Assembly: GCF_004101865.1 (NCBI RefSeq)
Contig: NZ_CP026118.1
Span: 3,985,001 to 4,049,000 of the forward strand
DNA: 64,000 nucleotides
Direction of reading: 5' to 3'
Source: Halobacillus litoralis
GTDB taxonomy: Bacteria; Bacillota; Bacilli; Bacillales; Halobacillaceae
In this document: positions 11,956 to 22,106 of the stretch, one piece after another
Position numbering within the stretch: the stretch's first letter is position 1
Layout: the number at the start of each line of letters is the position of its first letter
Notes under the pieces: generated by a model
Told to the model about the DNA's origin: nothing
What the model saw: only the letters and a program-made list of their open reading frames with translations
Databases searched by the model: none
Made by a program: the position numbers and the translations under genes

Positions 11956-12923
11956 ATGACGTTGTTTCGGCTTGGGTATGTAGCAATGAGTGTCAACCTG
12001 CAAAACGCTTCCCCATCTCAAACATTGACGTATAAGAAATTCGAACAAATTCAGGATCGAGAGGCAGCCCTTAGAAAGCTGGAAAGAATCGCTAAATCCA
12101 ATATTCAGAACTGTGTGCGTTTACTGAAGCATAATAAAGCTTATGATATCAATTTTTTTCGATTGAGTTCGCGTTTAATTCCCCTTGCTACCCACGAAGA
12201 GCTGGAGGACTGGAACTATCTTGCTGCTATTAAAGAGGATTTGCGGGAATTAGGTACCTTTGCAAGGGAAAATGAGATGCGACTTGATTTTCACCCTGAT
12301 CATTTTGTCGTCCTCAATTCTCCAAATAAAAATATATTCAAAACATCAATGGCTGTATTGAAATACCATTACCTTCTGCTCCATCATATGGGAATCGACC
12401 CGACCCATCGCTGTGTGTTTCATTTGGGGGGCGCTATCAAAATACAGAGAAATCACTCGAACGATTCATAGATAATTGGTCGCTCGTCCCTCAAGGCATT
12501 CAAAAAATGGTGATGATTGAAAATGATGATACCTCTTACACTTTGGGAAATGGTCTGTACGTATGTGAAAAACTGAATATTCCGCTCGTATTCGATCTTC
12601 ATCACCATCTAGCGAACGATGGCGGGGAAAACTGGACCACTTCCTGGAGTCGCGTCGTCTCTACATGGTCACACTCACCTTTGCCGCTGAAAATGCACAT
12701 ATCAAGTCCGAAGAATGAAAGTGAATTTAAAAGCCATGCAGACTATATTGACCTTGAAATGTTTTTGGATTTTGTAAGAAATGCCAATGGATCGACAGAG
12801 CAAATCGATTGTATGATTGAAGCGAAGAAAAAGGATGGAGCCTTATTTCAGTTAGTCGGAAAGCTGCGAGAGCACCCAAACATAGAAATGCGCTCTGACA
12901 GCTCATTTATCTGGAAGGATTAA
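11956..12923 (+). pseudogene. uvsE: UV damage endonuclease UvsE, frameshifted in a G-run
   Basis: The two frames together give a complete UVDE: RLGYVAMS at the N-terminus, metal-site segments DFHPDHF and FDLHHH, and a C-terminal ends-with-IEAKKKDGALF segment. UVDE nicks 5' of UV photoproducts, an alternative to UvrABC important in spores. The first frame ends at 12471. The family sequence resumes in another frame if one G is added to the six-G run at 12426-12431, giving HLGGRYQNTEKSLERF. Real phase-variable loss and sequencing error are both possible. Confidence 0.9.
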
Positions 12924-13368: not shown

Positions 13369-14562
13369 TTAAGGGCTCGATTTCCATGCAGGAAGCATCC
13401 GGTCCAAGGGCTTATCTTTTCTGTAACCAAGCACATATTCCGCTTGCATGATCGTATGGATTTCTCTTGTACCTTCATAGATGACAGGGGCTTTCGAATT
13501 TCGTAAATAACGCTCGACGGGATATTCATTCGAATAACCATAGGCTCCATGAATTTGGACAGCATCGTCGGCAGCCTGGTTTGCGAAGTCACAGGCCTGC
13601 CATTTTGCGAGTGAAGTTTCCCTGGTGTTGCGTATGCCTTTATTTTTTAAATCCCCAGCACGATAAACGAGGAGCCGACTCATCTGTAAACCTGCTTCCA
13701 TTTTTGCAATCATCTGCTGGACAAGCTGATGTCTGCCTATTTCTTTGCCGAAGGTTTTTCGCTCATGGCAATACTCGATGCTTGCTTCCAAACAAGCCAT
13801 AATTTGTCCGCATGCGCCGGCGGCCACGGTGAAGCGGCCGTTATCCAGAGCAGCCATGGCAATTTTGAATCCATCTCCTTCATTCCCCAGCAGGTTCTCT
13901 TTAGGCACTCTCACATGGTCGAAGAACAATTCTCCGGTATTTCCCGCGCGGATACCGAGTTTCCCCTTAGTCGCTTTTGAAGAAAAGCCTTCCCACGTCC
14001 GTTCAACAATGAATGCGGAGATACCATGGTGTTTCTTGCTTTTATCGGTATAGGCGAAGACCAGAAAATGATCAGCAGTGTCACATAAGGAAATCCACGT
14101 TTTCTGCCCGTTCAATATATAATGATTCCCGTCAGGTTTTGCGGTCGACTGTAAGGCAGCTACGTCAGAACCTGCTCCTGGTTCGGTCAGCCCGAATGCT
14201 CCGGTTTTTTCTCCTTTGGCCTGGGGAACAAGGTATTTTTGCTTTTGTGCCTCTGTGCCCCATTGAAGTATGCTCATACTGTTCAGACCTGTGTGGACAG
14301 AAACTGCGGTGCGAAAGGCTGTATCTCCGCGCTCGAGTTCTTCACAAACAATCGCTAATGAATTGTAATCCATTCCGCTCCCGCCGTATCTTTCCGGTAT
14401 ACAAACCCCCATTAATCCTAACTGTGCAAGCTTTTGTAAGGTCGCTTTATCAAAATGGCCGTTGGCATCCCAGCTACCGATATTTGGCATCACTTCTTTG
14501 TCCACAAAATCCCGAACTGTCTTTCTAAGCATGTTTTGTTCATCGCTCAACTCGAAATTCAT
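13369..14562 (-). CDS. acyl-CoA dehydrogenase, probable glutaryl-CoA dehydrogenase
   Basis: FAD enzyme of 397 residues with the family signature blocks FGLTEPGAGSD, GQKTWIS, FGKEIGRHQLVQQM and a catalytic-base segment VIYEGTREIHT with Glu363. YEGT-x-x-IH rather than YEGTSEIQ is common in glutaryl-CoA dehydrogenase-like enzymes, and the next gene is a family III CoA-transferase. I infer oxidative decarboxylation of glutaryl-CoA to crotonyl-CoA. ATG 14562 follows GAGGAG by seven bases. It is the second gene of a two-gene operon, 11 bases after the transferase. A generic short-chain role cannot be excluded. Confidence 0.85.
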   Translation of the reverse strand: MNFELSDEQNMLRKTVRDFVDKEVMPNIGSWDANGHFDKATLQKLAQLGLMGVCIPERYGGSGMDYNSLAIVCEELERGDTAFRTAVSVHTGLNSMSILQWGTEAQKQKYLVPQAKGEKTGAFGLTEPGAGSDVAALQSTAKPDGNHYILNGQKTWISLCDTADHFLVFAYTDKSKKHHGISAFIVERTWEGFSSKATKGKLGIRAGNTGELFFDHVRVPKENLLGNEGDGFKIAMAALDNGRFTVAAGACGQIMACLEASIEYCHERKTFGKEIGRHQLVQQMIAKMEAGLQMSRLLVYRAGDLKNKGIRNTRETSLAKWQACDFANQAADDAVQIHGAYGYSNEYPVERYLRNSKAPVIYEGTREIHTIMQAEYVLGYRKDKPLDRMLPAWKSSP

Positions 14563-14573
14563 CGTATCACTCC

Positions 14574-15764
14574 TCAAATCGTGTTCGCTTTCCTTAAACG
14601 ATCAATCTCTGTTCGTGAATAACCTAAAGCCAGCAAAATTTCATCTGTATGTTCACTCGGCTCAGGAGGATGAGTTTTCATTTGTACTGGGGTTCGGGAT
14701 AATTTTAACGGGCTCCCGATCATGCCTATTTCGCCTGCTTTCGGATGGTGGGCAGTGACAAACATGTCTCGTGCCTGTAACTGTTCGTCCGATCTTAATT
14801 CATCTAAATGCTGAATCGGTCCGAAGGGTATGCTCCTCTTCTGGCATTTCTTCTTCCACATCGCCGTTGTCTCTTTAGTGAAAGCTTCTTGCAAAAGAGA
14901 AGAAAGTTCCTTGCGGTTCGCCACTCGTCCTGAATTTGATTGAAATCGGGGCTCATGGGCTAACTCAGGCTGGCCTATGATCTCACACAGAGAAGCAAAC
15001 TGTTTGTCATTGCCGACTGCGATGACCATCTCGCCATCTTTTGTGTGGAATGTTTGATAGGGAACGATGTTGGCGTGATGGTTTCCGAGACGTTCTGGCA
15101 CTTTACCTGTCATCAAATAATTGCTGCCGATATTGATCAGTGAACTCACAGCTGAGTCATACAGAGACAAATCGATTTTCTGTCCGGTTCCGGAAAAGGA
15201 TCTCTCAAGCAATGCCGCTTGAACTCCTATGCAGGCATATAATCCAGTTAACACGTCCGTAATCGCGATTCCTGATTTCTGCGGACCTGATTTTTCATCA
15301 CCGGTTATGCTCATCAAACCGCTCATTGCCTGGATGATGAAGTCATAACCCGGAAGGTGGCGGTAAGGGCCTGTCTCACCAAAGCCGGTAATGGAACAAT
15401 AGACGATACCGGGATTGATCTTTTTCAGTTCAGGATAAGCTAATCCGAGTCGTTCCATAGTGCCGGTTTTAAAGTTGTGAAGGACAACATCACTCTGTCT
15501 GATTAGTTTTTTAATGATTTCTTTGCCTGCTTCGGATTTCAAATTCACGGTAAGGCTTTTTTTATTGCGGTTAGCGCACAAGTAATAGGCGCTCACTTTT
15601 TCTTGAAATGGTGGCCCCCAGTTCCTCGTTTCGTCACTTCCGCCAGGAGCTTCCACTTTAATTACTTCAGCACCAAGATCCCCCAAGATCATCGAACAAT
15701 AAGGACCGGCAAGTACACGGGTCAAATCTAGCACACGGATTCCTTTTAATGCGACCGTCAACAT
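14574..15764 (-). CDS. family III (CaiB/BaiF) CoA-transferase, probable glutarate CoA-transferase
   Basis: The 396-residue protein has the family's N-terminal GIRVLDLTRVLAGPYCSM, the ADLGAEVIKVE-like segment, the GYDFIIQAMSGLM block and the nucleophilic aspartate in AITDVLTG (Asp170, equivalent to Asp169 of formyl-CoA transferase). It moves CoA between carboxylates. Because its partner is an acyl-CoA dehydrogenase of glutaryl type, and the human relative SUGCT activates glutarate, I infer formation of glutaryl-CoA. First gene of the minus-strand operon, divergent from the aminotransferase operon. Confidence 0.88.
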   Translation of the reverse strand: MLTVALKGIRVLDLTRVLAGPYCSMILGDLGAEVIKVEAPGGSDETRNWGPPFQEKVSAYYLCANRNKKSLTVNLKSEAGKEIIKKLIRQSDVVLHNFKTGTMERLGLAYPELKKINPGIVYCSITGFGETGPYRHLPGYDFIIQAMSGLMSITGDEKSGPQKSGIAITDVLTGLYACIGVQAALLERSFSGTGQKIDLSLYDSAVSSLINIGSNYLMTGKVPERLGNHHANIVPYQTFHTKDGEMVIAVGNDKQFASLCEIIGQPELAHEPRFQSNSGRVANRKELSSLLQEAFTKETTAMWKKKCQKRSIPFGPIQHLDELRSDEQLQARDMFVTAHHPKAGEIGMIGSPLKLSRTPVQMKTHPPEPSEHTDEILLALGYSRTEIDRLRKANTI

Positions 15765-15789
15765 CGCTCACATCCTTCCTCTATATAAA

Positions 15790-15830
15790 AAGCCAGAAGA
15801 ACCCATACGATGTATGAATCCGACTGGCTT
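15790..15830 (-). promoter_or_regulatory. hairpin with U-run in the leader of the CoA-transferase operon
   Basis: AAGCCAG (15790-15796) pairs with CTGGCTT (15824-15830) and inside it CATAC pairs with GTATG. On the minus strand the stem is followed by TTTTTATA and ends about 25 bases before the start codon. It could be a transcriptional attenuator. Between here and 16,018, GATCATA and TATGATC also bracket a paired region. I could not match it to any known riboswitch or T-box. Confidence 0.45.
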
Positions 15831-16018
15831 GGGAACAACGATCATAATCAGGTGCAGGAGAGGGATGTCCTCTTTGGGCTACATCACATCTTATGCGGCA
15901 TCAGGAGGAGATATGATCCTGAAAATCCTCTATCATAGATTCATTTTTCCAGGAATAGGATAGATCAGTGGGACAATCTAGCGAGTAAGCGATCATGTTA
16001 TGGCTGGGGGTTTGTAGA

Positions 16019-17194
16019 ATGTCTAAAGGTTCGAAGCAGGTCAGTAGTTTACCCGCCTATCTGTTTTCGATTTTTCATAAAAAGAAAGTTGCATTAGAAG
16101 CGCAAGGAGTAGATGTCATAGATTTAGGAATCGGTGCCCCGGACTTGCCAACACCATCTTTCATCATCGATCGGTTGGCAAAGGAAGCTAGGGATCCTGA
16201 AAATCATAGATATTCGCCATATGGAGGTTGCCGGGAATTCAAACTGGCTGTCGTTGATTTTTATCAAAAGCATTATCGAGTGGAGTTGGATGCAGATTCC
16301 GAGGTTCTCGCTCTGATTGGATCTAAAGAGGGGATCGCCCATTTGATCAGTGCTGTTATAGACCCTGGTGATGGTGTTCTCACTCCGGACCCGGGATATC
16401 CTGTCTATCAATCAGCAATCCATCTCGCTCATGGTACAGGCGTGAAGTTTCCTTTAGATGAGGCGAATGGGTACACCCCTCGGTTAGAAAAGATTTCGGA
16501 AAGAGACATAAGACGATCGAAACTGATGTTATTGAATTACCCGAACAATCCGACAGGGGCCACTGTAGATCTGGATACCTTTGAAAAGGCGGTCTTATTT
16601 TCGAAGACTCACCACCTTTCTCTTGTCCACGACGCCGCCTACGACCTTGTGACATTCAGAGATTATCAAGCTCCGAGTCTATTGCAAGTACAGGGAGCGA
16701 AAGATGTGGCCGTCGAGTTCGGGTCTTTATCCAAAAGTTTCAACATGACCGGCTGGCGCATTGGATATGTTGTCGGTAATAGAGACTTGATCAAAGCGTT
16801 ATCGATTGTGAAAAGCAATATGGACACAAGTCAGTTTCTACCAATTCAAAAAGCAGCTGCAACAGCTTTGAACAGCGATTTCGTGGCTGTGAAAGAAAAC
16901 AACCGTGTCTACGAAGATCGGTTGGATATGATGATGAAGGCTCTACAGGAAATGAATATTGAAGCGGACAAGCCGCGAGGTACATTCTTCATCTGGGCGA
17001 AGGTCCCGGGTGGCCATACATCACAAGCATTCGCTGAAAAGATGCTTAGCGAAGCTGGTGTGATCATCACTCCCGGCAATGCATTTGGATCGAAGGGAGA
17101 AGGGTATTTCAGAATCAGTTTATCTGTACCGAAAGAGCGATTACATGAAGCAGTGAGTCGTATGAAAAAAGTGATGAAGGGAGGGACAATGTAA
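16019..17194 (+). CDS. class I/II PLP aminotransferase, probable 2-aminoadipate aminotransferase
   Basis: A fold-type I aminotransferase of 391 residues: substrate loop DLGIGAPDLPTP, SPYGG, NYPNNPTG (Asn177), VHDAAY (Asp205) and the PLP lysine in SLSKSFNMTGWR (Lys239). It looks like the LL-diaminopimelate/aspartate-aminotransferase-like subgroup. Context suggests conversion of 2-aminoadipate to 2-oxoadipate with 2-oxoglutarate as acceptor; this is inference. ATG 16019 follows GGGGG by eight bases; an upstream in-frame ATG at 15995 lacks a site. First gene of a four-gene operon; its stop overlaps the next start by one base. Confidence 0.85.
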   Translation: MSKGSKQVSSLPAYLFSIFHKKKVALEAQGVDVIDLGIGAPDLPTPSFIIDRLAKEARDPENHRYSPYGGCREFKLAVVDFYQKHYRVELDADSEVLALIGSKEGIAHLISAVIDPGDGVLTPDPGYPVYQSAIHLAHGTGVKFPLDEANGYTPRLEKISERDIRRSKLMLLNYPNNPTGATVDLDTFEKAVLFSKTHHLSLVHDAAYDLVTFRDYQAPSLLQVQGAKDVAVEFGSLSKSFNMTGWRIGYVVGNRDLIKALSIVKSNMDTSQFLPIQKAAATALNSDFVAVKENNRVYEDRLDMMMKALQEMNIEADKPRGTFFIWAKVPGGHTSQAFAEKMLSEAGVIITPGNAFGSKGEGYFRISLSVPKERLHEAVSRMKKVMKGGTM

Positions 17195-18837
17195 TGGAAG
17201 GAAAAATGATGACAAGTGCACAGGCGATTGTGGAGTGCATAAGGCGGGAGGGGATTCCGAACGTATTCTGTGTGCCGGGCGAAAGCTATTTGCCGGTGAT
17301 GGATGCAATTTCAGATGAACCGACAATCGAATTGATCTCTGCTCGTCATGAAGGCGGTGCAGCATTTATGGCTGAGGGGTATGCAAAAGCGAGTGGAAAA
17401 ACTGGGGTAGTCATGGGCACACGAGGCGTAGGAGCATCGAATTTAACGATTGGTGTACACACAGCTTATCAAGATTCCACCCCTCTCGTTGTTTTGCTGG
17501 GACAAGTCCATTCGAGCTTCAGTGGACGCGAAGGATTCCAAGAGGTGGACCTTGAAGCATTTTTCCGTCCGATTGCTAAATGGGTAGCTGAGATTCGCGA
17601 GCCACCGCGCGTCCCGGAAATCCTCCAACGGGCATTCCGTATTGCGCAAACTGGACGTCCGGGCCCTGTGGTCCTTTCCTTACCAGAGGATTTATTGAAA
17701 AAACAAGCCCCTATGACGTTCGGACCTGCCTTCACCAAGCCAGCTCCCCGGCCTAATCTCAGGGAATTGGAAGGTTTGGAAAAGTTTCTTCAACATTCGG
17801 ACCGGCCCTTAATCATTGCCGGTGGAGGTGTGAAGGGGGCAGGTGCGGAAGAAGCGCTTCAAGTTTTTGCGGAGAAATTCGAAATCCCGGTAATGTGCGC
17901 GTTCCGCCGTCACGATGTGTTTCCTAATGATGATGCACGTTATGTCGGCCATCTAGGCCTCGGAGTGCATCCGAACATTATAGAAACAGTAAGAGAAGCA
18001 GATACAATTCTTGCGATTGGAACACGCCTGTCCGAAGTGACCACACAGGACTACACCCTTTTGCAAGCCAATCAGAATTTGATTCATATCGATGTCGATT
18101 ACGGAACACTCGGGAAAGTGTATGCCCCGAATATCGGAATCATCGCTGATGCAAATGAAACTCTGCGGTCCATGATGGATTTTGAGATGCCTTTGAGATG
18201 GAAAGAGTGGGGAGCAACTCGAAGACGAGCGTATGAAGCAACTCTTCAAGTTCCTGGGAAAGCGACGGTGAACGGAAGGATCATAAGTATGATGCAGAAG
18301 CACTTGCCCTCAGATACGGTCTTCACGAATGATGCCGGGAATTTTGCAGGGTGGCTTCATTCATTTTTTCAATTCAGACAAAAGCATACCTATGTCGGTC
18401 CAACATCCGGTGCCATGGGCTACGGTATGCCGGCAGCATTGGGTGTGAAACTGGCTCACCCTGATAAAACGGTAGTTTCATTGTCTGGTGACGGTGGTTT
18501 CATGATGACTATGCAAGAATTCGAAACGGCGGTCCGTTATCAAATCCCGGTCATCAGCATCGTTTTTAACAACCGGATGTATGGAACGATCCGTATGCAT
18601 CAGGAAATCCATTATCCTTACAAAAAGATCGGAACGGACTTAGGAGAGGTTCCTTTTTCCAAATTAGCTGAAGATTTAGGGGCGGCTGGTTTTCATGTGA
18701 AGACCCCCGAGCAATTTGAAGAAGCACTTACTGCTGCTCTAAAAGAAAAAAAACCTGTCTTGATCGAAGTGGAAAGTGAAAGGGATCAGATATCCGTCTC
18801 TTCCACGATTCAACAAATGAGACAACGTACCAAATGA
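17194..18837 (+). CDS. ThDP-dependent decarboxylase (acetolactate-synthase-like), proposed 2-oxoadipate decarboxylase
   Basis: 547 residues with the three-domain ThDP fold: N-terminal PYR domain with catalytic Glu53 in SARHEGGAAFMAEGYA, a central nucleotide-type domain, and the C-terminal PP domain with the cofactor motif GDGGF (432-436) ending at FNN about 28 residues on. Annotation would be acetolactate synthase large subunit, but no regulatory subunit or ilv gene is near. Placed between an aminotransferase and an aldehyde dehydrogenase beside a lysine dehydrogenase, the simplest job is non-oxidative decarboxylation of 2-oxoadipate to glutarate semialdehyde. The TAATG overlap indicates coupling. 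Confidence 0.85.
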   Translation: MEGKMMTSAQAIVECIRREGIPNVFCVPGESYLPVMDAISDEPTIELISARHEGGAAFMAEGYAKASGKTGVVMGTRGVGASNLTIGVHTAYQDSTPLVVLLGQVHSSFSGREGFQEVDLEAFFRPIAKWVAEIREPPRVPEILQRAFRIAQTGRPGPVVLSLPEDLLKKQAPMTFGPAFTKPAPRPNLRELEGLEKFLQHSDRPLIIAGGGVKGAGAEEALQVFAEKFEIPVMCAFRRHDVFPNDDARYVGHLGLGVHPNIIETVREADTILAIGTRLSEVTTQDYTLLQANQNLIHIDVDYGTLGKVYAPNIGIIADANETLRSMMDFEMPLRWKEWGATRRRAYEATLQVPGKATVNGRIISMMQKHLPSDTVFTNDAGNFAGWLHSFFQFRQKHTYVGPTSGAMGYGMPAALGVKLAHPDKTVVSLSGDGGFMMTMQEFETAVRYQIPVISIVFNNRMYGTIRMHQEIHYPYKKIGTDLGEVPFSKLAEDLGAAGFHVKTPEQFEEALTAALKEKKPVLIEVESERDQISVSSTIQQMRQRTK

Positions 18838-18851
18838 AGGAGGAATACTAG

Positions 18852-20348
18852 GTGAGTTTAATTCAGGAAAAAGCACTGCGGAATTTCATAAATGGGGAAT
18901 GGGTGGAGCCAACGACAGGGAAGACGACAGCGGTCGTCAATCCAGCCACCTCTGAGACGATTGTACAGGTACCTTTATCAGGCAGTGAAGACGTGGTGGA
19001 AGCGACAGAAGCAGCAAAAGTGGCGCAAAAAAGCTGGGCGCTTGTACCAGCTCCGCAGCGGGCGGAAGTGCTTTATAGTGTCGGGATGATCATGAAGGAA
19101 AGAAAAGAAAAGCTTTCCCAGCTGCTGACAATGGAAAATGGGAAAGTGATCGAAGAAGCGCGCGGAGAGGTGCAAGAAGGTATTGATATGGCTTTTTACA
19201 TGGCTGGAGAAGGAAGGCGGCTTTTCGGTCAGACGACACCTTCAGAGCTGAAAGATAAATTCGCGATGAGCGTCCGCGCCCCCGTTGGAGTTGTCGGGAT
19301 TATCACGCCCTGGAATTTTCCGATCGCCATCGCAACGTGGAAGTCATTTCCTGCAATCGTAGCCGGCAATGCGGTGGTATGGAAACCGGCGACAGAAACT
19401 CCGATCATGGCGTATGAACTAGCGAAAATATTTGAAGAAGCAGGTCTCCCACGAGGGGTCATCAATGTAGTGTTCGGATCTGGTTCGACGGTCGGTGAAG
19501 CGATGATCGATCAAGATGACATCCGTGTCATTTCATTTACAGGTTCCAATGAAGTTGGCCGTAGGATCGCGGGTAAGTGTGGCCAAAGGTTGAAAAAAGT
19601 TTCGCTTGAGATGGGCGGAAAGAATGCCGTAATCGTGATGGACGATGCGGATCTTTCCTTAGCCGTCGAAGGGATCTTATGGAGTGCATATGGAACGAGC
19701 GGTCAACGCTGTACGGCATGCAGCCGTGTAATGGTCCATGAAAGTGTCAAAGATGAACTCGAAGAACGCCTGCAAAAAGAAATCGCAAAGCTGTCGATCG
19801 GAAATGGATTGGATGAGTCAATCAAAGTCGGCCCGATTATTAATCGAGCTGGTTTAGAGAAAGTCAAAAGCTATATGAGCGTTGGAAAAGACGAAGGAGC
19901 AAGACTTTTGACCGGTGGATACGTTATGGAAAACGGAGAGCACAAGAAGGGGAATTACTTTGCCCCGACGTTGTTCACAGATGTGAAACCGGATATGCGA
20001 ATTGCACAAGAAGAAATCTTCGGCCCTGTGGTGTCCCTCATCCCTGTGAAAAGTTTTGAGGAAGCCATCGAGATTAACAACAGTGTTGAATTCGGCTTGT
20101 CGAGTTCCATTTTCACTAGAGATGTAAACAAAGTTTTCGCTGCCCAGCGTGATTTGGACACCGGGATCGTCTATGTGAATGCAGGTACGACGGGTGCAGA
20201 AATCCACTTGCCATTCGGTGGTACAAAAGGGACAGGGAACGGCCATCGTGATTCGGGTGTCGCTGCTCTTGACGTATTCACCGAATGGAAAGCCGTGTAT
20301 GTTGATTTCAGTGGCAAACTGCAACGTGCTCAAATAGATGTGGAGTAG
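18852..20348 (+). CDS. NAD(P)-dependent aldehyde dehydrogenase, GTG start
   Basis: 498 residues of the ALDH superfamily with PWNFP (Asn155), FTGSNEVG, general base Glu253 in LEMGGKNA and nucleophile Cys287 in GQRCTA. The C-terminal FGGTKGTGNGHRDSG motif is like that of aldehyde dehydrogenases acting on semialdehydes. In this operon it could oxidise allysine (piperideine-6-carboxylate) to 2-aminoadipate, glutarate semialdehyde to glutarate, or both, since only one ALDH is present. GTG start at 18852, eight bases after AAGGAGG. Confidence 0.9.
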   Translation: MSLIQEKALRNFINGEWVEPTTGKTTAVVNPATSETIVQVPLSGSEDVVEATEAAKVAQKSWALVPAPQRAEVLYSVGMIMKERKEKLSQLLTMENGKVIEEARGEVQEGIDMAFYMAGEGRRLFGQTTPSELKDKFAMSVRAPVGVVGIITPWNFPIAIATWKSFPAIVAGNAVVWKPATETPIMAYELAKIFEEAGLPRGVINVVFGSGSTVGEAMIDQDDIRVISFTGSNEVGRRIAGKCGQRLKKVSLEMGGKNAVIVMDDADLSLAVEGILWSAYGTSGQRCTACSRVMVHESVKDELEERLQKEIAKLSIGNGLDESIKVGPIINRAGLEKVKSYMSVGKDEGARLLTGGYVMENGEHKKGNYFAPTLFTDVKPDMRIAQEEIFGPVVSLIPVKSFEEAIEINNSVEFGLSSSIFTRDVNKVFAAQRDLDTGIVYVNAGTTGAEIHLPFGGTKGTGNGHRDSGVAALDVFTEWKAVYVDFSGKLQRAQIDVE

Positions 20349-20397
20349 GTGGGGGAAGAATGATGAAAGATAAATAGAGAAAAAGGGAGTGCAGACG

Positions 20398-21549
20398 ATG
20401 AAAGTAGCTGTATTAGGGTCTGGACTAATGGGGAAAGAAGCGGCACGAGATTTAGTGCAAAGCGGCGGAGTTGAGAAGGTCGGTCTCGCAGACATCGATG
20501 TGAAACGAGCAGCTGAGGTTTGTGATTCACTGGGTTCATCGAAAATCGAAGCTTTCAAGATCGATGCTGGAAACACTGAAGAGCTTGCGAATTTCTTGAA
20601 AAATTATGATGTCATTATCAATGCCTTGTTCTATTCGTTTAATGAGATTGTAGCCAGGACAGCCATCGAAGTCGGTGTCCACTCTGTCGATTTAGGTGGT
20701 CACATCGGTCATATCACCGATAAAGTATTGGAGCTTGATGACAAAGCGAAAAATTCAGGTGTGACGGTGATTCCGGATTTAGGGGTCGCTCCAGGTATGA
20801 TCAATATATTAGCGGGCTTCGGCGCGAGTAAACTGGACCAGCTTGAATCGATTCGTCTCTTTGTAGGAGGCATCCCTGTCCAGCCGGAACCCCCGCTTGA
20901 ATACAACCATGTTTTTTCCATGGAAGGATTGTTGGATCACTACTCAGATCCATCTACAATCATTCGTGGAGGGAAACTGCAGGAAGTAGAATCCCTGACA
21001 GAACTGGAGAAAATCTACTTTGAACGGTTCGGGCCGTTAGAGGCCTTCCACACCTCTGGCGGAACGTCGACGTTGTTAAAATCCTTTCCGACGATTGAGA
21101 CGTTAGAATATAAAACCATCCGCTATCCAGGGCACGCAGAAAAAATGAAACTGCTTGTAGACTTGAACTTGACCGGCAGCAGTCATGTCGTCGATGTGGG
21201 CGGGGTCAAAGTGAAAACGCGTGATGTTTTATTAAAATCGATCGATCCGATTTTGGATCTGAAAGATAAAGACGATGCTGTGTTACTGCGAGTGATGGTC
21301 GGCGGCAGGAAAGCAGAAAAAGAGAAGCACTACCAATACGAGATGGTCACATATAAAGATCGGACGAGTAAGGTAACAGCAATGGCGCGCGCGACAGCCA
21401 ATACGATATCGGTCGTCGCGCAAATGATCGGTAATGATAAAATCAGCAAGCGCGGAGTTTGTCCTCCAGAGACGATCGTACCAGGCGATTTATACATTAA
21501 AGAAATGTCTGAACGAGGCGTTGTGATTCAGGAGAAAACCGAAGGCTGA
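20398..21549 (+). CDS. saccharopine dehydrogenase family; probable L-lysine 6-dehydrogenase
   Basis: 384 residues. An N-terminal Rossmann fold ([15 protein letters not shown]) is followed by the saccharopine-reductase-like domain with [30 protein letters not shown] and [14 protein letters not shown] recognise this pattern as that of Geobacillus L-lysine 6-dehydrogenase, which oxidises lysine to allysine with NAD and needs no 2-oxoglutarate; a true saccharopine dehydrogenase is the alternative. ATG 20398 lies eight bases after GGAG. Last gene of the operon, followed by a strong terminator. Confidence 0.85.
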
Positions 21550-21576
21550 GATAAAATATTTTAAAAGTTTTATCCG

Positions 21577-21609
21577 GAAACCCCCTTGCTCCATGGGCAA
21601 GGGGGTTTT
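21577..21609 (+). terminator. terminator of the lysine-catabolism operon
   Basis: AACCCCCTTGC pairs with GCAAGGGGGTT around a short loop, followed by TTTTCC, 28 bases after the dehydrogenase stop. Confidence 0.85.
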
Positions 21610-21821
21610 CCACTTCGTTCAGATTTGGCTGATCCGTGGAGATATTATACAATTTATATAAACTTTACATATTCAAGCATTGCACATCAAAGAAACTATG
21701 TATGTTAGTGGGAGGGCATGGCAGTTTTTCATGAGGGTATGAAATGAGAGCCCAGGTTTGATTCACCGTAAGGAAAGGTACCTATAGGTATTTAATAGAA
21801 ATGAAGTGAGGAGTGCATAAT

Positions 21822-22106
21822 TTGTATTTGAAAGAAGTGAACAATCTCCAATTCCATAGTCAGCTATCTTTGAAGCAAGTAGAAGATCGCCTTCTCATTA
21901 CGGCGGAGTTCCCTGACGAATTTTTAAAAGAAGTCGAAATGAAAGACCCATTCCTTTATGTCACTTTGTTAGTGAGAGGTGGAGCAAGAATAAAGATCAT
22001 TGATGAAGACAGTGCAAAGCTCCACATTCCTGCCAAAAAAGATTTTGAACAGAAAACCTACCACAAGATCATTGAATTTGCGAAAGAGCATGCAAAACAG
22101 TTCTGA
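21822..22106 (+). CDS. hypothetical protein, 94 aa, TTG start
   Basis: The TTG at 21822 is eight bases after GAGGAG and is a better start than the in-frame GTG at 21813. The product is hydrophilic and mixed alpha/beta, with a strand-turn pattern (RLLITAEFPDEFLKEVEMKDPFLYVTLLVRGG) and a final helix. I do not recognise it. It stands alone between the lysine operon terminator and a repeat element. Confidence 0.55.
   Translation: MYLKEVNNLQFHSQLSLKQVEDRLLITAEFPDEFLKEVEMKDPFLYVTLLVRGGARIKIIDEDSAKLHIPAKKDFEQKTYHKIIEFAKEHAKQF

Follow-up and report, generated by a model that had tools for sequence, protein, structure and literature searches.

Divergent operons of Halobacillus litoralis predicted to convert lysine to crotonyl-CoA via glutarate, and a conserved leader RNA of glutarate genes in related Bacilli

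This study deals with six adjacent genes on a 64,000-nt stretch of Halobacillus litoralis (NZ_CP026118.1, positions 3,985,001 to 4,049,000 of the forward strand; hereafter the window), which are predicted to degrade lysine by way of glutarate, and with a leader RNA that precedes glutarate genes in related Bacilli. On the minus strand, the genes for a family III CoA-transferase and an acyl-CoA dehydrogenase resembling glutaryl-CoA dehydrogenase (GCDH) overlap. On the plus strand, the genes for a class I/II aminotransferase and a thiamine diphosphate (ThDP)-dependent enzyme overlap and are followed, after 14 and 40 bases, by the genes for an aldehyde dehydrogenase (ALDH) and an L-lysine 6-dehydrogenase-like protein (LysDH), respectively. 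Since the genes on the same strand overlap or sit only 14 to 40 bases apart, it is plausible that they form two divergent operons (Table 1). The six open reading frames (ORFs) named in a preliminary description of this DNA proved to be intact and correctly placed, and their Pfam domains agreed with the proposed families; the structured leader RNA of the CoA-transferase-GCDH operon had been overlooked there.

Table 1. Features of the divergent cluster, with predicted roles (P6C, piperideine-6-carboxylate) or the basis of the assignment
Feature	Position in window	Strand	Predicted role or basis
GCDH-like acyl-CoA dehydrogenase	13369..14577	-	predicted glutaryl-CoA to crotonyl-CoA + CO2
Family III CoA-transferase	14574..15764	-	predicted glutarate to glutaryl-CoA
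Terminator-like conserved hairpin in the predicted CoA-transferase-GCDH mRNA leader	15787..15830	-	alignment, fold
Second conserved intergenic block; possibly a promoter, operator or diverged RNA core	15954..15976		8-locus alignment, weaker in locus L044
Class I/II aminotransferase	16019..17194 (start 15995 also possible)	+	predicted 2-aminoadipate to 2-oxoadipate
ThDP enzyme, PRK08199 subfamily	17194..18837	+	predicted non-oxidative 2-oxoadipate decarboxylase, giving glutarate semialdehyde
ALDH	18852..20348	+	predicted allysine/P6C to 2-aminoadipate; possibly glutarate semialdehyde to glutarate
LysDH	20389 (GTG) or 20398 (ATG)..21549	+	predicted lysine to allysine/P6C
Probable intrinsic terminator of the aminotransferase-ThDP-ALDH-LysDH operon	21576..21612	+	inverted repeat with TTTT; not in the terminator scan listing

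LysDH matched PF03435 (Sacchrp_dh_NADP) and PF16653 (Sacchrp_dh_C) above the cut-off, and its best PDB match was 3abi (PH1688; E 2.6e-40, residues 3-381 aligned), which we take to be a lysine 6-dehydrogenase. Its close homologues were Halobacillus proteins, whose source names are split between lysine 6-dehydrogenase and saccharopine dehydrogenase. The window protein is predicted to be a lysine 6-dehydrogenase that carries out NAD-dependent oxidation of the 6-amino group of lysine. The ThDP enzyme contains the N, M and C thiamine pyrophosphate domains of Pfam and, among the models shown, passed only NF006052/PRK08199 ('thiamine pyrophosphate protein'; 737.9 bits against a curated cut-off of 539). 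Its solved neighbours were BbmA, acetolactate synthases, glyoxylate carboligases, pyruvate oxidases and, lower down, benzoylformate decarboxylases, and its structure model had a predicted local distance difference test score (pLDDT) of 83.7. Its putative role as a 2-oxoadipate decarboxylase forming glutarate semialdehyde is inferred from gene linkage; a comparison of group-specific residues of the LysDH-linked ThDP enzymes pointed to no substrate residue.

The remaining proteins were assigned as follows. The ALDH matched PF00171. The aminotransferase matched PF00155, with an LL-diaminopimelate aminotransferase subfamily as the best NCBIfam model (504.6 of 507 bits) and 2x5d and 6l1l as PDB matches. 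The CoA-transferase matched PF02515 (E 4e-136, 454 bits), being the sole PF02515 match in its genome at E<=1e-3, and had succinate--hydroxymethylglutarate CoA-transferase 9br6 (E 3.7e-105) as its best PDB match. The GCDH-like protein contains the N, M and C acyl-CoA dehydrogenase domains of Pfam and best matched the glutaryl-CoA dehydrogenase 3mpi (E 2.1e-97); its closest paralogue in the same genome is 47% identical. The motifs ERGDTAFRT and IYEGT are present in it: the Glu/Arg pair of the former presumably forms the glutaryl pocket, and the Tyr-Glu of the latter presumably lies at the catalytic base. The Arg aligned with that of 3mpi, which has Val at the Tyr position, and Tyr-Glu is common also in other acyl-CoA dehydrogenases among the PDB matches.

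A search of 299 genomes of the order with the ThDP protein gave hits at E<=1e-100 in 54 of them. Of the 55 ThDP genes outside the window, 54 were examined together with about 9 kb on each side (shorter at contig ends), and the gene fragment of genome G230 was left out. Identity limits were 50% for the neighbouring families and 45% for the aminotransferase. LysDH was found near ThDP in 36 of the 54 loci, and all six families were found in 20. The 36 loci with LysDH had ten gene arrangements, partial sets included, and contained ALDH in 36 cases, aminotransferase in 32, GCDH in 24 and CoA-transferase in 23. The named loci with ThDP, ALDH and LysDH include those of Halobacillus, Virgibacillus, Lentibacillus, Oceanobacillus, Geobacillus, Anoxybacillus, Heyndrickxia and Aquisalibacillus; an Anoxybacillus locus (L118) has a class III aminotransferase and lacks the class I/II one. 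On a tree of the 54 locus proteins, the window protein and an outgroup, LysDH linkage required 3 changes (2 of them forced by well-supported branches), compared with 15.4 when labels were shuffled. In at least eight loci, GCDH is adjoined by a second ALDH that shares 37-40% identity with the window ALDH; the one scanned (L050) resembled succinate semialdehyde dehydrogenase, below the cut-off. The H. litoralis genome encodes, elsewhere and unlinked (C1:3111398), an ALDH 59% identical to this GCDH-adjacent ALDH, and such a second, unlinked ALDH may be required for the oxidation of glutarate semialdehyde.

Some other features of these loci were observed. A family assigned to IclR-type regulators by a Pfam scan of one member (L072) occurs in 14 loci (L038, L050, L072 and others) and adjoins LysDH in 13, and is absent from the window cluster. 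Geobacillus-type loci L057, L058, L061 and L068 carry molybdenum-hydroxylase-type genes beside LysDH (FAD_binding_5 in L068, Fer2_2 in L058). Two loci (L083 and, in Gottfriedia, L127) contain CoA-transferase, GCDH, ThDP and ALDH genes without LysDH in the stretch, and a TTGGCA-N7-TTGCA-like sequence upstream of their CoA-transferase gene resembles a sigma-54 promoter by eye; no sigma-54 promoter was recognised by eye in the window.

Co-occurrence was then evaluated with identity limits set by eye at gaps in the hit lists; scoring was limited to some of the candidates in each genome, and the statistics ignore kinship. LysDH (at least 59% identity) was found in 53 of the 299 genomes and a ThDP homologue in 54, and both were present in 44, compared with about 10 by chance. 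CoA-transferase (at least 53% identity) was found in 40 of the 44 genomes with LysDH and ThDP and in 1 of the 9 with LysDH alone (Fisher 4.6e-6), as well as in 5 of the 10 with ThDP alone and 21 of the 236 with neither. When the fragmented CoA-transferase of genome G057 was counted, the value for LysDH alone became 2 of 9 (Fisher 6.6e-5), and without the three genomes in which LysDH has in-frame stops (G057, G065, G081), Fisher was 8.5e-5. That CoA-transferase follows ThDP among LysDH genomes fits a ThDP route to free glutarate, which would need re-activation by CoA transfer. Two of the seven genomes of the genus Halobacillus had no match for LysDH, ThDP or CoA-transferase.

The preliminary description had read the gene set as a complete-looking pathway from lysine to crotonyl-CoA that departs from the HglS route at the decarboxylation step. 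The linkage part of this claim is borne out, since the families are linked in the 54 ThDP loci and co-occur above chance in the 299 genomes, with the six together across many genera in differing orders; clusters tied to another pathway, one of the cases named as refuting it, were not seen among the recurrent neighbour families. HglS (PF07063), considered as a replacement for the ThDP step, was found in none of the 28 genomes searched, that of H. litoralis included, in agreement with the proposed departure. 'Complete-looking' relies on a single ALDH for two oxidations.

Outside Bacillota, LysDH, ThDP and ALDH genes lie in a row at four alphaproteobacterial loci (L138, L140, L144, L165), with a divergent Lrp-type regulator at the three checked (L138, L140, L165). 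All five ThDP-adjacent ALDHs scanned (L137, L138, L140, L165, L190) passed the P6C dehydrogenase cut-off. On an Azospirillum plasmid (L190), about 9 kb separate LysDH from the ThDP-ALDH pair, and LysDH is adjoined by another ThDP-dependent enzyme. LysDH of a Rhizobium plasmid is accompanied by an ALDH, an aminotransferase and an FAD/Fe-S protein, with no ThDP gene in the stretch, and LysDH of a Sinorhizobium plasmid has no ALDH, aminotransferase or FAD/Fe-S partners. The association of LysDH with ThDP may have arisen twice, because the LysDH-linked ThDP enzymes of alphaproteobacteria grouped with proteobacterial members and not with those of Bacilli (FastTree).

Upstream of the CoA-transferase gene, a GCCAG...CTGGC-TTT hairpin was found at a distance of 61-150 bases in 25 of 38 loci with upstream sequence. 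It preceded GCDH in 3 of 48 upstream stretches, and it was found upstream of none of the aminotransferase (0/53), ThDP (0/75), LysDH (0/69) or ALDH (0/66) genes; in these counts, some loci represent the same genome twice. In leaders outside Halobacillus, a core lies ahead of the terminator hairpin; it consists of two stacked stems flanked by ACUG and CAGU. In 11 sequences, 84.3% of the cells pair, and 22 cells show double changes, compared with 7.4 in shuffled alignments and 3-7 in slid controls; four of five covariation measures exceeded all 500 shuffles, and the fifth, the number of pair types, was reached by 38 of 500. Of the 13 leaders cut out, L062 and L079 are not in alignment A2, L055 is in addition not in A3, and Halobacillus-type leaders are in neither. 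Among 20 hits outside the training rows, 91.6% of the core cells pair, compared with 62.7% when shuffled, in an alignment that was fitted to the model and from which L210 (a near copy) and L223 (no visible core, no glutarate gene) were left out. Alignment A5 was likewise made without the near copies L199, L202 and L210 and without L223, the last omission favouring the leader RNA reading. Double changes occur in 18 of 25 pairs among 30 sequences, 10 of which are training rows. When folded in silico, the leader of L109 up to CAGUU adopted the antiterminator fold and the full leader the terminator fold. The full leader of GlaH, the glutarate dioxygenase gene elsewhere in the H. litoralis genome, likewise adopted the terminator fold, and a version truncated at GCCAG formed the inner hairpins only.

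To define the genes that follow this RNA, a model (R1) of ten training sequences, nine from upstream of CoA-transferase and one from upstream of GCDH, was used, and it gave matches in 55 of the 299 genomes at E<=0.01. Of the 35 rows with at least 40 bits, 20 precede CoA-transferase or GCDH, 8 precede GlaH, 4 precede an APC permease and 3 have no such partner. After six training rows were subtracted, 26 of 29 precede glutarate-linked genes; among these non-training rows, G236 is a close relative of a training row and G292 was in alignment A2. The rows without a glutarate gene directly downstream are G042, where a Rieske-type gene is divergent from CoA-transferase, the second row of G172, and G063. 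Below 40 bits, several more rows lack a glutarate gene (e.g. G220, G241, G247, G104, G256); this range holds antisense and terminator-only matches (up to 38 bits) as well as genuine-looking GlaH, CoA-transferase and permease rows at 30-38 bits. GlaH itself occurs as 37 genes in 36 of the 299 genomes, and all five GlaH proteins scanned passed the glutarate dioxygenase cut-off. In H. litoralis, GlaH is followed by an L-2-hydroxyglutarate-oxidase-like (LhgO) gene (ORF of 401 aa), and GlaH-LhgO and a class III aminotransferase-like gene each lie behind a leader copy (L270 12376-13469 and 5382-7025; C1:3030375 and 3023381).

A second model (R2), made from 30 sequences, gave matches at E<=0.001 in 39 of the 398 genomes of the class that were searched, 32 of the 39 lying outside the order. 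All 24 new loci, one each from 24 of these 32 genomes, precede CoA-transferase/GCDH or GlaH; for one of them (L259), the assignment was made by tblastn on a longer stretch (L285). One of the other eight genomes was inspected (G427), and its leader lies before GlaH. Extra leader copies lie before class III aminotransferases, an ALDH, DUF3870 and an APC permease, and four have no clear partner (L275 at 10617, L276, L277, L280 at 9308); in L276 and L277, the gene behind the match encodes a protein of about 1,100 aa. The leader RNA is conserved and structured, and the genes associated with it form a very specific set. At L244, a gene at 1694-2743 on the minus strand, Rieske-oxygenase-like by eye and divergent from CoA-transferase, has its own leader copy (R2, 63 bits). 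An APC-type permease accompanies the glutarate genes and leader RNA at L208, L210, L211, L213, L062 and L118, and our guess is that it transports glutarate or 5-aminovalerate. A small gene encoding DUF3870 is found repeatedly in the vicinity of GlaH and of CoA-transferase-GCDH; when it was considered as a HutP-like antiterminator, HutP was not among the PDB matches listed for DUF3870, which excludes nothing.

The window's own leader copy is divergent. Its hairpin has a 17-bp stem with a 2x2 internal loop and ends in five U, two of them paired. In the alignment of the divergent intergenic region of 8 Halobacillus-type loci, the stem is invariant and loop positions vary. The hairpin occurs as a single copy in its genome with up to 2 mismatches allowed, its fold z is -4.7 on the minus strand and -3.5 on the plus strand, and where it deviates from a perfect DNA palindrome, the minus strand allows G-U pairs. 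When R2 was applied to 9 Halobacillus-type loci, two weak matches were obtained (L034, 30.1 bits; L037, 26.9 bits). At the leader, neither the window nor any of seven related loci had an Rfam match that reached the gathering score, so that no known riboswitch was recognised in the divergent intergenic region; the sole Rfam match in those loci was Bacillaceae-1 in L055, away from the leader.

Taken together, we consider it probable that the two divergent operons encode a single route from lysine to crotonyl-CoA and that, in relatives, the glutarate operon lies behind a leader RNA whose likely signal is glutarate. In this route, LysDH would oxidise lysine at C6 to allysine/P6C, the ALDH would convert this to 2-aminoadipate, and the aminotransferase would give 2-oxoadipate, which the ThDP enzyme would decarboxylate without oxidation to glutarate semialdehyde. 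The semialdehyde would be oxidised to free glutarate by the same ALDH or by an unlinked second one, the CoA-transferase would form glutaryl-CoA, and the GCDH-like enzyme would yield crotonyl-CoA. Comparative genomics gives good support to the pathway reading, with substrates that are predicted. In many relatives, the leader RNA would form either an antiterminator, in which ACUG:CAGU closes the two stacked hairpins, or a terminator (GCCAGU...ACUGGC-U-run). Glutarate is the likely signal because GlaH-LhgO, the alternative glutarate route, lies behind this leader as well, and it is the simplest one because GlaH, by family, and the CoA-transferase, by its predicted role, share glutarate as a substrate. 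The gene set, its linkage and co-occurrence, the covariation of the RNA and the genes associated with it are observed; from these we infer the substrates, the direction of flux, the ligand of the leader and the ON direction of the response, the last because the genes are catabolic. The leading reading of the leader is a glutarate riboswitch or a protein-dependent attenuator.

Several observations weigh against this interpretation. Three window proteins scored below the cut-offs of the corresponding family models: the ALDH reached 423.9 of the 730 bits for L-piperidine-6-carboxylate dehydrogenase (NF050084); the CoA-transferase reached 435.7 of 750 for succinate--glutarate CoA-transferase (NF052585), its best-scoring model; and the GCDH-like protein reached 382.6 of 470 for Desulfococcus-type glutaryl-CoA dehydrogenase (NF045552), with a higher score of 392.2 for an acryloyl-CoA reductase model, also below the cut-off (640). 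The PRK08199 family is broad, with LysDH adjacent in only 4 of 50 non-Bacillota loci (some on short contigs), and LysDH is missing from 10 of the 54 ThDP genomes of the order. Conversely, nine LysDH genomes, of seven genera and five families, have no ThDP homologue at E<=1e-100 among the few candidates scored per genome, and no replacement was recognised near their LysDH; one such genus (G011, G057) carries CoA-transferase and is a clear exception. An E1/E2-type 2-oxoadipate dehydrogenase complex was also looked for beside LysDH in these nine genomes; none was recognised by eye in nearby ORFs, and it may lie elsewhere. As for the leader, 67 genomes have a CoA-transferase with 53% identity or more, and R1 matches were obtained upstream of this gene in only 25 of them. 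Of the 37 GlaH genes, just 13 have an R1 match ahead of them, which ends 53-105 bases from the matched part. Since ACUG and CAGU hardly vary, covariation lends no support to the antiterminator helix itself. The window leader keeps the hairpin but scored only 7.4 bits with R1 and had no match with R2 at E<=0.1.

Other explanations were weighed against a single lysine route through glutarate. The upper operon might stop at 2-oxoadipate, with the ThDP enzyme catalysing another reaction (e.g. carboligation or a side reaction), a 2-oxoacid dehydrogenase complex forming glutaryl-CoA, and CoA-transferase-GCDH serving external glutarate. The nearest solved ThDP structures, which are mostly acetolactate synthases, glyoxylate carboligases and pyruvate oxidases, favour another ThDP reaction, and a ThDP-free route may exist in the nine LysDH genomes without a ThDP homologue, five of which have a GCDH of 79-83% identity near LysDH. 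The presence of CoA-transferase and leader RNA in genomes without LysDH or ThDP hits (e.g. G041, G111, G216) argues for external glutarate. Against this alternative stand the tracking of ThDP by CoA-transferase among LysDH genomes (40/44 versus 1 or 2/9) and the joint occurrence of ThDP and LysDH in 36 of 54 Bacilli loci and four alphaproteobacterial loci, and we regard it as unlikely. It is more improbable still that lysine is not the physiological substrate, and that the cluster serves to break down some other diamine or amino acid or to produce 2-aminoadipate as an osmolyte. Halobacillus is a genus of halophiles, which counts for an osmolyte. In the available account of Ruegeria pomeroyi (2014, PMC4334477), high salt favours the lysine dehydrogenase pathway to the osmolyte aminoadipate. 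However, ThDP, CoA-transferase and GCDH would be unneeded for an osmolyte, yet all six families are linked in 20 of 54 loci, and the ThDP-ALDH-LysDH set is found also in Geobacillus and Anoxybacillus.

For the leader RNA, the chance that a protein antiterminator binds it, or that it responds to some other signal (e.g. tRNA or translation) and not to glutarate itself, appears to fall just short of even. Protein dependence is common among attenuators of this shape, an aptamer would be expected to have a larger core, and the recurrent DUF3870 gene could encode such a protein. Mutually exclusive antiterminators and intrinsic terminators upstream of operons are known from the T-box, riboswitch and ribonucleic antiterminator (RAT) leaders of Firmicutes; the present leader would follow the same logic but has no Rfam match at the gathering score. 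A more far-reaching version of the preferred reading, in which a riboswitch class of Bacilli senses glutarate directly and turns on both glutarate exits, CoA-transferase-GCDH and GlaH-LhgO, together with a feeder aminotransferase, ALDH and permease, and a natural ThDP 2-oxoadipate decarboxylase feeds glutarate, is put forward only tentatively.

Further ORFs of the window lie outside the cluster. A 97-aa ORF downstream of LysDH (21813-22106, plus strand) has relatives in three other loci of the genus Halobacillus, and the relative in L033 had no Pfam match. Two neighbouring ORFs on the plus strand (11956-12471 and 12507-12923) are possibly one broken gene and resemble two parts of what we take to be a UV-endonuclease-type protein.

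The predicted route can be compared with known systems. LysDH of Geobacillus is an L-lysine 6-dehydrogenase of the aminoadipate branch. In lysine degradation by the HglS route, 2-oxoadipate is converted to 2-hydroxyglutarate; the present route would share this starting compound, with the ThDP enzyme in the place of HglS. ThDP chemistry on 2-oxoadipate is also that of DHTKD1. As far as the available account goes, the mammalian DHTKD1 2-oxoadipate dehydrogenase complex is oxidative and complex-bound and makes glutaryl-CoA directly, whereas here an acetolactate-synthase-like enzyme and a later CoA-transferase would be used. The lysdh-aasadh genes of R. pomeroyi similarly encode LysDH and an adjacent aldehyde dehydrogenase that make 2-aminoadipate; that account, in its available part, ends at aminoadipate, whereas the window genes could continue to crotonyl-CoA (PMC4334477). 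An engineered pathway is described as converting alpha-ketoadipate to glutarate via the ketoacid decarboxylase KivD and GabD (PMC12861294); it is synthetic, whereas the present arrangement is natural and conserved. Glutarate catabolism of Pseudomonas putida, as outlined in the available account, has the same two exits, CoA transfer with GcdH and CsiD/GlaH with LhgO, encoded by gcdR-gcdH-gcoT and csiR-csiD-lhgO; two separate protein regulators, GcdR and CsiR, act there, whereas in Bacilli one type of leader RNA precedes both routes (PMC6667623). Among the matches listed from the open literature, with most subscription papers outside the scope, neither a ThDP 2-oxoadipate decarboxylase in lysine catabolism nor a glutarate-responsive RNA was found; the novelty of the ThDP route and the leader RNA is not established.

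If the proposed route is correct, a stand-alone ThDP decarboxylase would close the gap between lysine and glutarate in Bacillaceae and some alphaproteobacteria, and this enzyme would deserve interest in lysine catabolism as well as in glutarate biotechnology. The leader RNA would then be one regulatory element for both glutarate routes, defining a glutarate regulon of Bacilli and offering a glutarate sensor, and it would provide leads to the functions of the APC permease, the class III aminotransferases and DUF3870.

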